Below, piece by piece: positions 24,722-50,500 of a DNA stretch of 64,000 nt. Below the pieces are notes generated by a model. That model was not told the origin of the DNA. It saw only the letters and a program-made list of their open reading frames with translations, and made no database searches. Source of the DNA: Beroe forskalii (lineage: Eukaryota; Ctenophora; Nuda; Beroida; Beroidae); the NCBI GenBank assembly GCA_011033025.1, contig WFMF01000251.1, positions 186,001-250,000 on the forward strand. The letters run 5' to 3'. Within the stretch, counting starts at the first letter, position 1; each line of letters opens with the position of its first letter. Position numbers and translations under genes: made by a program.

Positions 24722-27700
24722 TTACATTGGTGTTGTTGCTGTACATCCCTCATTCCCAGAAGAGCTAGATAGAGTAGGCTGTTCCTTCAGACTTGCCATT
24801 TCAAGCGAATATTGCTCCTCTTCAATATTTTCTCCCTGGGGGATGATCGTGGGTTTTACATTTTTACAAAATTCGTTCATAACGTTTTTGTGAAAATTCT
24901 TTAAAATCCTCAAATTCAAACGGGTTTCAAACTCAATGGATTTCTAGGTTCATAATTATTTAGGCTAAATTGATCTGCACTGTATTGCTAAGATAACCAA
25001 ATGCTTACACTACTTACATTGCCATCCCTTGATAAAGCCACATTCCTTTTAGCTGCAACTCCGCTCTGTTTTTTCTCAACAAACGACCCATTAGTCATAG
25101 GTACATCCAAGGTAAGTTGCTTAGGTAGTTCCTGGGGCGGTTCTCTTTTTCGCAAATAATAACTTTGCAGCGACGAACACATACATCTTGACGAGAAACA
25201 TCTTGCATGCTCGTAAGAAATTAGCTGCGTGATCCGATGTAACCTCATCATAAAACAGTGGATTGAGGACAGAGTTAATCGGCAGGATCACCACCGAGAA
25301 AAGAGAATACCAGTCTGTTGCGTCCAACACTTCGAAGGAGTGAAGAATGCAGATTAGGATGAACGGAAACCAGCAGATTGAATCAGTTGCTATCATCATT
25401 TGTATCTTTCTTTGGGTTTTCTGGTTTCTCCGGCCAACTTGTTCGCCTATTCTTCTTGCTATGGCTGCGATTGAGAAGTAACAAAGTGCGATTATCAGCA
25501 AGAAAATCGAGTATATCCCGTGGACAGACCAAACGAAGAACCGTTGAGGATCTTTAGGACTTACGAAGAACTTGAAGTAGCATGCATTGTTCCCGTAGAA
25601 GTGAACGGTTTTCACCTGAAATCAGTAATTAGGGATATGCACAATGAAACAGCATAGATTATCGGTAGTACTTTCGTTATTACATCGTTGGCCTATAATT
25701 GGAGGGGATAAATTTGTATCAATATTATAGCAATCAACAATAAATTGTCAAATTACTACAAACTACTCGATTACCTTACAACTACAATTCACCTGGCTGG
25801 ATATTCCTCCATAATCCATGGAGAAAATATCATTGATCAAATTCCTGACTACATCCCAACTCAGAAGACTTGCTTTCAATATTCGACCACCATAATAAGC
25901 ATCGATTATTGTTATATGCTTTGATTTATCCAGGACACCGATGAAAACTTTGAGCTTTGGGTCATAACTCAGACCGTTTATAAAGATATCTTTAAGAAAA
26001 CCAGAAACTGGCACGATTGAAAGAACGATTGATAAGATAACCACCGATACACATGTAAGTGCAATTCTAACTGAATGTTTTTTAGTAGCACCCCTAGGGG
26101 CTACAAGAAGGAGACTTGTTAATCATTCGGAACCTTACAACACTCAAAACCGTCATGGAAAACATGGAAATGAAGGAGCCTGAAGTACTGATCACACCTA
26201 GGAACGAACAAACGTTTCCGGTTCTCCAATCAGCTTGGAGCTCACAAAACTCATCTCCGTAGAAAAGATCGAACAAGGAAAGGGTCAGCAGATAGATCCC
26301 AATCAGCAGATCACCGAAACCTATAAGGAGCACCCAGGCGTTGTTATTGAGGGATCTGATATTCTCACATTTCAGTATCTTCATGATACATCTCCTGATG
26401 TTTGCCACATTTAGGAGAGTTGCTAACACCCCGTACATCCAAGATATTCCCTTCATGAACATCCCATCCAGGAGTTCTTTAGAGCAATGCTCATTGCATT
26501 CATCGGAGAAGTCTAAGCAGTGAAAAGTCCCGTCGCATTTGTGAGGTTTTGGGATATCAAGTAGCGTTTGATCTGCGCATTGAAAGTGGTTGGTGCATCT
26601 GGTTTCATCAGCGAAATCACCACAATCATCCAACCAGATCACAGACTTTGGAGTATGGAATACATTTCTGGGTTCTTTCACAGACAAAGAAATCATTGTG
26701 GTAGGTATCGTGTGATCTTATCACATATGATAGATATGGGCGTCCAGATGAATCACGAGCATAGGTTCCTATAAAAGACTCGGGATTTTGATCTCGACAT
26801 AAACTCATTTTTGGAGAACTGCTTAGTGGACATTCTGAATGGAAACAAGATCCTGTGCAGCTCATGAAAACATATGTTTCACCGTACATGTTGTCGCAAT
26901 GTTGTTTGTTCAAAGGTATTTGGAGTCGAGGACGTTGTGAATCACTAATACCCAATATTTTGTGCATTGGATACCTGAACGGATTTAGGGAACAATTTGT
27001 TAAACGTTTAAATGATACAATTAAGTTTAAAATCAGAAGCTTTCGAAAATCATATGATTAACGGCGTCAGCTAGAGATGGAAGGTGCGAGCGTGCTTATA
27101 AATGATATGAGAGGTGTCAGGGGGAGGGAGATGGGTTGTGAATGTGTGTGAGCTGGTGACTGATAATAAAATATCTACCTGAACGGGAATGAACGGCACA
27201 GGAATCCCCCTTGAGACGCTCCACGTTTTTCATTCCCGGCAAACAATACAACAAACTCTGAGCTGTCCTATGTTGAGCGTTGTGCTGATAAACAGACCTG
27301 AAAACCTCCGGAAAGCTCCTGGATACCTTACAGACCGTGTTCTCAGACCCACAACTCTCCACCCCATCACACAAGCTGTCATAAGCCACGAAATGGACCC
27401 CACTCATCCTGCACAGAAACACATCCTCACAGCCGCCGGAGTATTCTACAGCAAAACGTTTAGTTAGTCCTTTGCCACAAGTGGGCCATGAAGATCCATT
27501 CTCATCCTTTCCATCCAGGCAATCCTCAAAACCATCCCCCAGCCAAGGCAGAGCCAGTGGCATCAGTTTCATATCTGGGTGTCCTTTTCTGGCACACTGG
27601 TTTTTGGTGAGGTGGAGACACATTGGGTCCACCTCATCACTGCCATCTGGGCAGTCCTCAAGTCCATCGCAGAACCTGTGCTTGTGGATCAAGCACCCTC

Positions 27701-30289
27701 CTGAGGTGGAGAAACAGAGGTTTTCCATGTTGTCATCGCAGAGTTGACCCCTTCCTGCACAGACCTAAGATGAGAAGTTCCTTAGGAGGTTTATTTATGG
27801 AGGTTGTAATTTGGGGATTTTTCGGAAAAATCCCTTTTTTCACACACCATTACAGTTTATAATGACATCGTCATCATAATATGTGAACAACGGTAATGAC
27901 TTGAGAAAATACTAGAACGTATAATATGAAAAGTACGAACCCGTGCTGGGGTTATGATTCAATATTTTTTCGAAAAATCAAAATTTCTTTACGTACTTAT
28001 TTCACCAGGATCTAAAAGTACGTACTGATACGGTTCATCTGAAAGGTACGTACCGTACGTACTTCTCATCTTAGGCACATACCATGACTTTAGATACGTT
28101 GGAAGGGAATTTGTTGATGTTGCACAACACACCCACCCTCACTGGGTCAGAACAATTTGTTTGATGCATGAAATCTTCTTCGTCTTCATACACGTTTATG
28201 GTTGCACACCTGGAATAGTAAACAGGAATTAAACAGGAATTAACTAGAATTACACAGGAATTTAAAAAGAGTCTTAGTTACCAAATACAATAGATACCAA
28301 ATGCAATAAATAAAATTGAACCATACCTGGTAAAATTGAATAACGTCATATTCCTGCTGATTCTTTTACCACTTTCTCGATCATAACGTTTTCCCATGCA
28401 GCTCATGTTAATTCCATCTTCCTCACAGTTTACCTCAAGAGATTAAAGTTTAAACTATGTAACTTATAAGAGAGAGTTGTAATCAGAAGCTGTGATTACC
28501 GTCGTCTGCTGAGAGTGAAGTATGGAGCGGGGTTTAAATATGAGTGATCATGATTTCAAAGGAGGTTGAAGGGTGTCGGGTGGGTGGCAGCTGTGACGAG
28601 AAAATCAAAATATATATCTATACGTTTACCTCATCTCTTCCATCTTTACAGTCCTCAACCCCATCACAAACATCCATTGGGTTTACATACCCCATAGGGG
28701 CGCCCGGCTGCCTTTCAATTCGACAGTACAAACCTGGATTGTTAAATAGGTGCAAAAATACGCGCATTGTTAACGTACGTGACAAGAAATGGCATAACCA
28801 GGTCTGAAAAGGGGTTTTAAATACCTTATTGGCTCTTATATAACCGGCCGTCATTAAGGACAAAAACGACTTTGATGATGACCCCCTTCTGACCCCCTAC
28901 TGACCCCCTGCTGACCCCTAGTCCCCAACTGATCCCCTGCTGACCCCTAGTCCCCTACTGACCCCTGCTGACCCCCTACCGACCCCCTACTGACCCCTAG
29001 TGAACCCCTGGTGACCCCCTGCTGACCCCCTTGTGACCCCTGCTCGGCACCCTTTGAATTCGGCAGTACAAACCGTATAGGTATCCATTACATTCGGCCT
29101 CATCCTCACATGTCTGTATCTCTGGCTGACAGATGCCATCGCAAATAAAATCCCGTCCTACTTTCTTTCCTGATCTCAATTCTGCGCCAGCTCCTCTATA
29201 ACACTTTTCTTCGTACATTATCGTGTTGTCACAGCGTAAAAAATCAGTGTTTGTTTCGTCACAAACGTATAACTTGGTCACCAGTTGACTCCCTAGGAGG
29301 ATGTAGGTTTGGTCGACGGAACAGATAAAGTCACCGCACATTAAGGATTCCCACTGTAGAGGGCCGTTCTCTCGAACTCCACATACCTGAAGTAGAAATG
29401 GAAATATAATAAGCGGTTACATGTCGAAGTGGTGACTGTATACCGCAACTTACATGGTCGAAGCGACCTGCGACAGCCGAGACTGTGTAAGTAAGATAAT
29501 GGACGAGGCGTGCCGAGTTCAAATTTCCACATAAATTTTCACTCAATCATATCAAAATAAATATTATAATAGCAAGTGTCTTTTGTCTTAGTGTTTACAA
29601 AAATTACAAAAATAATGTTTTTTTAGGCCTTAATGTCCTCAACATGCTAAAAATATGTTAATACGAGGTGCATAAGAAGACAAGAAACCTGCCAACAAAT
29701 TTCCAAAACCGAGAAATACGGAAAAAGTTTATTCCCACCTGGTAGAAATTTGTGTCCCCAGTGCAAAATTCACTGAACTTCTCATCGTAAAATGTTCGAG
29801 AGTTGACGCACTTGAAAAGGGTGCGGGTGGTATCTGCAGGATCGTTGCAGACATATTTCAGATATCCGTTCCATTCTCGGAGTTCACACGTGATTCGGTC
29901 ATTCGTTTTTGCTGAAAATAATTGAAAATAACTATAAAAACAAAAATCTATGATGAGTACTATATAACTTAAAATCGTTCTCGGACCATATTGGAGCATC
30001 CAATCCCCACTTTATTTCTTTTTTAGTTTTGAATTTCCTAGTTTGCTATGCTGTTCAACAAGCTAACATATAAGGATCAACAAAGATTCATTTTGCCTAC
30101 ATAGTTACCGATTGGGCCCCTGTCTTTTGATCTTGTCTCTCTGCTCAGTGAGCCTGCAGCCGATTCATACTCCTCCCTGCTCAGTGAGCCTGCAGCCGAC
30201 TCCTCCTTGCTCAGTGAGCCTGCAGCCGACTCCTCCTCCCAACCAAATGACGAAGCTCTTGAAAACAAAAGGAGAATGGTCAACATCAT
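24722..30289 (-). CDS. LDLa-containing 7TM receptor (GRL101/relaxin-receptor type)
   Basis: Exons read 30289-30109 (signal peptide MMLTILLLFSRASS, then three EESAAGSLS-type repeats), 29911-29739, 29386-29074, 28733-28630, 28433-28327, 28209-28083, 27774 to about 27182, 26974-25775, 25615 to about 25018, and a tail near 24919-24722. The ectodomain has several Cys-rich LDL-receptor class A modules (CDGLEDCPDGSDE, CDGVEDCKDGRDE, CGDFADETRC). The membrane part shows TM1-TM3 (GVLATLLN, LLIGIYLLTLSLFDLFY), a TM6 with CWFPFILICILHS and a TM7 with LPINSVLNPLFY (NPxxY). This matches LGR/GRL101-like class A receptors, with LDLa rather than LRR dominating. Frame breaks by one base occur near 26640 (inside an LDLa), near 26090 (second intracellular loop) and near 25160 (tail); the 27182/26974 joint is also off. 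These are either assembly indels or pseudogenisation. Confidence 0.75.
27775..28074 (-). mobile_element. introner-like DNA transposon forming a receptor intron
   Basis: A 300-bp element has perfect 14-bp terminal inverted repeats, ctaagatgagaagt at 27775-27788 and its reverse complement at 28061-28074. It is flanked by an 8-bp direct repeat matching at 7 of 8 positions (gcacagac at 27767-27774, gcacatac at 28075-28082). On the coding strand the intron starts with GT inside one target copy (gtatgtgc) and ends with the AG of the element's own terminus (cttag). The next exon begins with the other target copy (gtctgtgc). The 8-bp duplication suggests a hAT-like origin. Inside, sequence near 27785-27850 resembles the MITE at 48195. 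Confidence 0.8.
28870..29046. repeat. minisatellite tgaccccctactgaccccctgc in receptor intron
   Basis: Tandem 10-12 bp units of tgaccccctgc type. On the transcribed strand it is G-rich with runs of 4-5 G, so it could form G-quadruplexes. A related array lies at 56100-56190 in a WD40-gene intron. Confidence 0.85.
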
Positions 30290-47500: not shown

Positions 47501-50500
47501 AATTCAAGGAATATTAATTCGCCGAACAGTTAATTCGTAGCCACCTGTGGCAAAAAAATGGAGGAGTGTAGCCTGAGAGAGAGAGTGAGAGCACAAAAAT
47601 TTTGCACAAAAACTCCGAAACACGCCTTTAAGATCAAGACATTTCTCGGAAATTCTGAAGATGATCTTCAGAATTTCCCAGTATATTAACTCAGCCTGAG
47701 AGGCAGTAAATGAAGTTCATGAGGTGGCTCATTCAAGTGAGGAACATCTGGTTCCAATTCCTTCAATCTTACGAATTATCTGATTGCAATTCAAGGAATA
47801 TTAATTCGCCGAACAGTTAATTCGTAGCCACCTGTGGCAAAAAATGGAGGGAGTGTAGCCTGAGAGAGAGAGTGAGAGCACAAAAAATTTTGCACAAAAA
47901 AACTCCGAAACACGCCTTTAAGATCAAGACATTTCTCGGAAATTCTGAAGATGATCTTCAGAATTTCCCAGTACTATATTAACTCAGCCTGAGAGGCAGT
48001 AAATGAAGTTCATGAGGTGGCTCATTCAAGTGAGAGAAAGTGAGAGCTCCTTTCTCCCTCCACCATCTGGGGCCAGTTGAACTCATTGATATGTTTTGTG
48101 TTATGCTGTAGGTATGTGCCTACTTAGGAGCTTTAAAACCCCCCGAGACACATGACTTGGTCTTATCGCTGCAACTTTGTACCGTGTTTTATATACCTTA
48201 GGAGGTTTATTTATCAAGGTTGTAATTTGGGGATTTTTCAGAAAAATCCCCATTTTTCACCCACCATGAAATTTCGAAATGACGTCATTATCATAAGTTA
48301 ACAAGAGTAATGACTTAAAAATCCCCATATTTTCAACCTACCAAAATTTGAAACACCGAAATTTTATTCCAAATAAATACACCTCCTAAGGTAGATTACA
48401 ATATAGTAGTAGCCCGCTCCTTCCAGCGGCCCCGTTATATTTCGCGTATCATTCCGCCGGATATGCATATTTTCTAGCGCGCAGCAGTACTAAGTGACGT
48501 CATACTCATATGGGCGGCGGATTACTCTTGAACCAAATATAGTCTCTAGTTCTATCAATTACATTAATCTGATGATGCGATATAGCCGATCTAGGTGATA
48601 TCTGGGACGATTCAACGTCCCAAATATGAAGAAAAAGATTCTGCTGTCACATACGAAATAACCAGTCGTATTTTTTTGTTTTTTTTTAAATAATTAATAT
48701 CCTGATGATTGAATGAATATTAACCTCTTGTGATAATTTGAGGTTGATCAGTATGATTAAAGACGTATTCTTGTTCCTGGTGCTCCTTGGGGAATGCTAC
48801 AGTATGTATTGCTACAGTGGCGCAACTAAGAATGGCGTGGGCGAAGTCAGAAAAGCAGTTTGTGATAAATATGTCAAAGAATGTGAAATGTGAGTATAAA
48901 CCGATTTCACGGATAGGGTCGTTCAATAAGAGTCGCAATGTGATTACAATAATTGATGATTACTTTATTTATTCTCTTTCGACTCAATGGTACAAGTACT
49001 AATCTAAACGATGTGACAATAAATTTCGTCGTTCAACGACATCTTCAGGTCTCAAATTTGATCGTATAAAGTAATGTCGTTAAGTTTAAAACTTTCATCC
49101 TGTTTAATCCTGTCTTATCCCGTCTAATCGTGTTTAATCGTGTTTAATCGTGTTTAATCCTGTCTAATCCTGTCTAATCCTGTGTAATCTTGTTTAATCC
49201 TGTCTAATCCTGTTTAATCGTGTTTAATCCTGTCTAATCCTGTTTAATCCTGTCTAATCCCGATTAATCCTGTGTAATCTTGTTTAATCAATTAATCCTG
49301 TCTAATCCTGTCTAATCCTGTCCAATCCTGTTTAATCCTGTCTAATCCTGTCTAATCCTGTTTAATCCTGTTTAACCCTGTCTAATCCTGTCTAATCCTG
49401 TTTAATCCACCGCAGCAACACTATATGGGCAGACTCCTCTGACGGCACTGGACATGTCGTAACGAAGCTGTATAAATGCGGAAGCACCTTGGCAGGTTAC
49501 AAGTGTATTTGATTATCCCGTCACCTGCTCACTCAGAGGCGTAGCCAGGGGGAGGCGACATAGGCGGCCGCCTCCCCCTTTTTGGACAGATGATAAGAAA
49601 CTTTTGTTCATTTCGATAATATGAGCTCGCATTTGAGCCAACAAAATAAAACATTAAACAGGTTTTGAATGTAACTCGCCGCCCCCCTTTTCAGGATCTG
49701 GGTGCCGGTGAGGGTCACATCCACCTCCCATCTCCAGCTGAGGTTAGGCTATATCATTTATAGGGTCACCACCTTCCATCTTCAGCTGACGACGATAATC
49801 ACATGATTTTGTAAAACTCCTGATTTTCAGTTTTATAGTTTATCGTATCATTCAACGTTTTAAACTTACACCCTGTCAGATTACAAGTGTTTGGTAACAG
49901 AGGACACGCAGTGTTGGATGTGCAATTATGGATTGAACCCTGAAAAGGCCTCGGAAAACGGCAAGTGAGCGGGATCCTCAAACGGGGATCTAGTTTCTGT
50001 CACGTGAATTACCTAATAGTATTTCTAGTATTTAGGCAAGGGGTGTTTTTGAGGGACAAGGGTGGGGGTGAGGGTTCTTATTTTGTGAGGCAAAGTAGAG
50101 GAAAGGGTCATAATTTTTTTAAGGTTTTATCCAACCTCAAAGGGTCAGGACTTTCGTGAGATCAAAATATAATTTCGTTAGGAAAAAATTCGGCTTCCTC
50201 AAGGCATCCTTATAGTGGTCGTATCAGTGTGCAGTGAGGAGTATATACCTATGGAAGATATTTACTCATCGATCAAGTTCATTTTCAAGTATTTATGGAT
50301 GAAAATTTGGAAAAGCCTCGGAAAAGGAACAAATAGTCGGATCCTCAAATTATGATCTATATTCTGTCAAGTGAATTCGCTAATGTTCTAGTATTTATGG
50401 AAAAAGTTTTTACGACAAATTAAAAGTTGCTTCTTATTTTGTCGCAAAGTAGAGGAAAATCATAATTTTTTCACAGTTTTATCCAACCTCAAAGATTTGG

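Follow-up and report, generated by a model that had tools for sequence, protein, structure and literature searches.

How does an exon acquire an intron? The old question of the origin of new introns is raised by a receptor gene in the window analysed here, a 64-kb stretch of Beroe forskalii DNA, because one of its predicted introns (intron e) appears to be little else than a transposon. Our preferred answer, to which we give a probability of about 0.85, is that a hAT-like MITE inserted in an exon at GTATGTGC, duplicated 8 bases and survived as an intron, its splicing being predicted from the DNA. The locus would then be a clean case of intron gain, for which the target duplication can be seen, the family that supplied the element is at hand and a paralog still shows the unfilled site.

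The element spans 310 bp (27765–28074) and is bounded by exact 14-bp inverted ends. The CTAAGATGAGAAGT end lies on the plus strand at 27765–27778, and its minus strand reads as a pyrimidine-rich acceptor ending in CTTAG; the exact 14-bp partner lies on the minus strand at 28061–28074. The 8-mers that flank the element on the minus strand, GTATGTGC (28082–28075) and GTCTGTGC (27764–27757), are identical at 7/8 bases. Predicted intron e (minus strand, 27765–28082, 318 nt) is GTATGTGC, the would-be 5′ splice site, plus the 310-bp element, and terminates in CTTAG. The preceding exon (minus strand, 28083–28209) ends in SNVSKVM, and the following exon (minus strand, 27179–27764), which carries an LDL-receptor class A domain and starts VCAGRGQLC, opens with the second copy of the duplication. 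Joining the exons across 28082–27765 preserves the frame, and splicing would restore SKVM followed directly by VCAGRGQLC. An earlier note on this DNA had described this arrangement: one transposon with an 8-bp target duplication as the whole intron, perfect 14-bp inverted ends, a direct repeat matching at 7 of 8 bases at the element borders, the 5′ splice site in one repeat copy, the AG in the element end (CTTAG) and the next exon opening with the other copy. All of this was borne out, and that a single element makes up the whole intron stands with its size and start corrected from 300 bp and 27767 to 310 bp and 27765. When we scanned the window for exact inverted ends of at least 10 bp, 60–700 bp apart and flanked by 8-bp repeats with at most one mismatch, three places were found in the 64 kb, and GT..AG borders occurred only at intron e; the same scan gave none in 10/10 order-1 Markov controls.

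Does the site exist without the insertion? The host gene is a member of a large LDLa receptor family in this genome. This family is very large, and many members consist of one uninterrupted open frame some 1000 aa long. Searched against the genome, the junction peptide gave 151 matches, and 150/326 candidates were scored. Among these, the best 11 other matches (66–76% identity) cross the site free of stops in open frames of 768–1296 aa, and most of the lower-scoring paralogs listed, which are 33–57% identical, show no stop within the matching region. At the nucleotide level, the insertion was absent from the site in 4/4 paralogs examined: in paralog L090 the target is present exactly and unfilled (ATG GTATGTGC AGG), and ATGGTATGC stands in its place in the remaining three. 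The upstream copy of the duplication thus looks ancestral, and the exon copy GTCTGTGC looks to bear a synonymous change of a Val codon from GTA to GTC. Because the window gene is nested by identity in an intronless family, gain is favoured over loss. Thus, at the level of DNA comparison, intron gain by a hAT-like MITE in a receptor exon is strongly supported.

What kind of element is it? Its right half yielded 62 match rows in a genome search, and the pattern of its 14-base end, with at most one mismatch, occurred 97 + 98 times, compared with 42 + 36 times for a reversed control pattern. We counted as paired those copies with both ends at no more than 3 mismatches in all, accepting ends more than 600 bp apart for one copy only (C254); several right-half matches and single ends were left unpaired. 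This gave 37 paired rows and, after removal of a spurious pair within the window copy, 36 copies with both ends among the loci examined, so that other genomic copies sharing the ends of the element, as the introner interpretation supposed, do exist. Most copies (32/36) are 317–380 bp long, with a median pairwise identity of 0.91 and a nearest relative at a median of 0.98; the remaining four measure 92, 99, 310 (the window copy) and 4269 bp. The 8-bp duplication is perfect in 30/36 copies, has one mismatch in 4/36 and is absent in register in 2/36, so that 34/36 show the target duplication expected of a hAT element at 0–1 mismatch. The hAT terminal consensus is YARNG; the family ends, CTAAG, fit it at positions 1, 3 and 5 and depart from it by the T at position 2. 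We then considered the target itself, using 33 duplications (the two copies with no matching duplication and the duplicated locus C703 were left out). T at position 2 plus A at position 7 was counted 41 times out of 66, against 19.4 in a flanking-DNA null (sd 3.7, maximum 33 in 5000 draws). This is the preference nTnnnnAn, given as the target pattern of the hAT transposase Hermes in PMC10368747, and it fits the hAT-like identity proposed earlier.

Is the window copy a recent and complete arrival, as the earlier note had claimed? Compared with the copies of 317–380 bp, it is 79–89% identical at its right end (mostly 85–89%) and 74–86% identical in its left part. Its middle is deleted, and much of its left half is a fragment (plus strand, 27780–27908) of a different, very common MITE with CCTTAGGAGG ends. 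We judge the window copy to be old because it is at most 89% identical to its relatives, whereas these have a nearest relative at a median of 98%. The element is therefore an old, rearranged copy: neither "complete" nor "recent" is supported, and the intron gain itself is supported by the uninterrupted site in the paralogs.

Could the element belong instead to the P superfamily, in which an 8-bp duplication goes with a THAP transposase? The 4.27-kb copy in C254 does contain a THAP domain. Its borders show, however, that a TTAA-AGGACCAGTAAACTG...CAGTTTACTGGTCCT-TTAA element is nested in an ordinary MITE copy, and the THAP part sits in this nested element, which is flanked by a separate TTAA duplication and has AGGACCAGTAAACTG as its ends; a THAP transposase belonging to the MITE itself was not found in C254. 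In addition, a relative of the nested element scores for both THAP and Pfam "Mutator", and the target pattern of the MITE family is hAT-like. The profiles PF21787 and PF21788, which we take to be those of P-type transposases, had no match here and none in any control genome either, so their silence carries no weight. We dropped the P assignment, which had been drawn from the THAP domain, once the middle of this copy was recognised as a TTAA element inserted into it, and now hold membership of the P superfamily to be improbable. For the same reason, the copy of 4269 bp was ruled out as the autonomous parent of the family. TTAA duplication and a THAP domain are traits of the Kolobok superfamily, to which the nested element therefore points. 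This Kolobok-like element lies in MITE copy L078 (C254:99544–103812), and its relative (L099, in C370) has an open frame of 730 aa in the piece examined, with the THAP and "Mutator" matches.

Two further explanations accept the hAT-like MITE and dispute how its intron arose. The intron could be older than the element, which would have inserted into it, the paralogs being intron-less retrocopies. Retroposition could indeed yield such paralogs, and in introns a and g of the same gene repeats occupy just part of each intron. Yet predicted intron e contains nothing besides a single target copy and the element, with no leftover of an older intron, the 8-bp target is present as exon sequence in L090, and the nesting of the window gene within the intronless family by identity also speaks against it; we consider an older intron very improbable. 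Alternatively, the gene copy was already dead, and the element simply sits in a pseudogene whose family lacks introns, without forming one itself. Paralogs without an intron at this site agree with this, broken paralogs do occur (L097 and L098), and the window gene itself differs from paralog L089 by 1-nt indels near 27186, 26632 and 26115. With these three frameshifts the assembled gene copy is broken; either it has recently become a pseudogene, in which splicing may no longer matter, or the 1-nt indels may be assembly errors. Against an insertion into a dead gene, the alignment of the gene (29858–25121) with L089 has seven interruptions, all 7 of which can be assigned GT..AG borders with colinear joins, a score that is partly a matter of construction since we set the borders by eye so that they would read GT..AG. 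Five joins are gap-free, join c has a 3-nt gap 7 bases upstream, and join f has a 1-nt deletion 8 bases upstream. Moreover, 14 internal indels are multiples of three alongside the 3 single-base ones (two alignment-end gaps are omitted from the count), and window-specific differences by codon position (118/67/176) resemble those of paralogs (85/64/156 and 90/74/167). Both features point to a long protein-level constraint on the gene, and we regard prior death of the gene copy as unlikely. Gain of an intron by exonic insertion of the hAT-like MITE remains the reading that we prefer.

Does the same MITE form introns elsewhere? A frame of at least 100 aa runs over the joined flanks of 13/36 copies, the window's included, so frame length alone does not set the window copy apart. 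Three of the 12 other long-frame copies (C122, C184 and C580:1312715) were set aside as repetitive by eye, and a Pfam scan of the other nine, which is blind to exons that lack a Pfam domain, gave 0 matches above the curated cut-off. On the long-frame strand, GT stands at the donor position only in the window copy and in those of C1 and C691. The C1 copy (L069, C1:1656182–1656280), which has two sub-threshold Pfam matches, is a 99-bp MITE inserted exactly at the apparent donor of a coiled-coil-like exon, which ends in ATG and is followed by GTACGTTT; its duplication, GTACGTTT, is the first 8 bases of the intron, and the donor apparently predates the insertion. In total, a whole predicted intron could be shown for 1/36 paired copies, the one in the window, and one more adjoins a donor site. 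The earlier designation of an introner thus holds for the arrangement at intron e, where the element ends fall at the splice-site positions, the duplication giving the donor and the end giving the AG, but not for the family, in which many similar intron-forming copies were not found. We rejected the family as a mass introner on these counts and on the 0/9 Pfam-supported flanks; a few further copies beyond the window's may nevertheless form whole introns.

What is the mechanism of intron gain? We propose that a non-autonomous hAT-like MITE entered the exon at GTATGTGC and duplicated 8 bases, a step for which the evidence lies in the DNA. The upstream copy of the duplication would read as a 5′ splice site, GTATGT, and the inverted end would provide a pyrimidine-rich acceptor, ACTTCTCATCTTAG. 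Splicing would then take out the element together with exactly one copy of the target and restore the pre-insertion mRNA, which is how the insertion could have survived as an intron. Such a fit may be common in this family: GT occurs at the donor position in 11/66 strand orientations of its insertions, and the end ACTTCTCATCTTAG would give an acceptor in either orientation. Because both ends carry CTTAG and the target preference favours T at position 2, GT donors are expected to be frequent and AG always at hand. An exon insertion would thus have roughly a one-in-six chance (11/66) of being a ready-made intron.

Is intron e alone in carrying a repeat? Two further introns of the gene, both on the minus strand, are made of what we call repeat family 2: intron c (28434–28629), with a 10-bp direct repeat TGAGGTAAAC at either end, and intron f (26975–27178), with an 11-bp direct repeat CCGTTCAGGTA at either end. 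The same family, with a further insertion within, occupies an apparent intron of another gene (plus strand, 49496–49879), which has CAG[G/A]TTACAAGTGT at either end, a direct repeat of 14 bases with one mismatch. Their best matches to other copies have E values of 1.5e-43 (c), 6e-17 (f) and 3e-12 (49496–49879). Intron b (minus strand, 28734–29073) has a 24-bp imperfect direct repeat at either end and a G-rich minisatellite within, and may have been born by duplication of exon sequence; intron g (minus strand, 25616–25792) contains a repeat of about 126 bp and has CAGGTGAA at either end. Over the splice sites of introns a to g, exact direct repeats run for 5, 11, 10, 6, 3, 11 and 8 bases; in 42 mismatched donor-acceptor pairs the runs average 4.8 bases and never exceed 8, a length reached by 3/42. 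The runs of b, c and f exceed those of all 42 pairs; at intron e the exact run is 3, and its 7/8 duplication comes into view only if one mismatch is tolerated.

In C290, a weak match (53% identical, residues 1–43 of 55) runs through the 49.5-kb junction without interruption. Copies of repeat family 2 also occur with 11-bp duplications away from such introns (L092 and L096), and when 6 of the 39 other scored matches were examined by eye, exact introns were found in 0/6; many copies are thus ordinary insertions. Variable starts together with duplications of 10–14 bp suggest that repeat family 2 is a retroposon. Introns c and f and the intron at 49496–49879 are better introner candidates than the hAT-like MITE of intron e. 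From these sequence features, an otherwise intronless receptor seems to have gained several introns from transposable elements, and these gains, seemingly independent of one another, can be studied in a single member of a family without introns. A limited literature search met no comparable case of a gene that had gained several introns within an intronless family. We entertain, tentatively and with more doubt than belief, a broader reading in which exonic transposon insertions are often rescued by splicing here, the introns of the receptor come mostly from at least two unrelated classes, and the hAT MITE is pre-adapted to intron gain. The two classes may be the hAT-like MITE and the retroposon-like repeat with its 10–14-bp duplications, and the pre-adaptation may lie in the hAT target preference combined with CTTAG ends.

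How does intron e compare with known systems? Giroux and colleagues are said to have described in 1994 a non-autonomous hAT element, Ds, in a maize exon, from which it was removed by splicing. Intron e is alike in that a non-autonomous hAT-like element entered an exon, with removal predicted; it differs in lying in an animal-type gene, and probably in taking its acceptor from the outermost bases of the inverted repeat and its donor from the target duplication. Intron creation by maize Ds is cited in the review PMC3443670, which describes it as not understood whether target preference, or the sequence of the element itself, predisposes some transposons to create introns. Both can be measured here, with GT at the donor in 11/66 orientations and AG available from both ends. 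The element resembles hAT MITEs, with Hermes as the target-site reference (PMC10368747), in its 8-bp duplication, nTnnnnAn target, short inverted ends and a family in which no coding capacity was seen, and differs by its CTAAGATGAGAAGT ends. For introners derived from DNA transposons, Gozashti et al. 2022 (PMC9860276) report families that account for anywhere from 5 to over 2,000 introns in a genome, with the spliced mRNA length unchanged for most families. Intron e shares their arrangement, with the 5′ splice site from the duplication and the 3′ splice site from the element, as in the Symbiodinium example given there, and is unlike them in that a whole predicted intron could be shown for 1/36 paired copies of its family. 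Intron e thus adds to the known transposon-made introns with a duplication donor and an element acceptor, and the locus is unusual in how many gains a single gene of an intronless family appears to have undergone.
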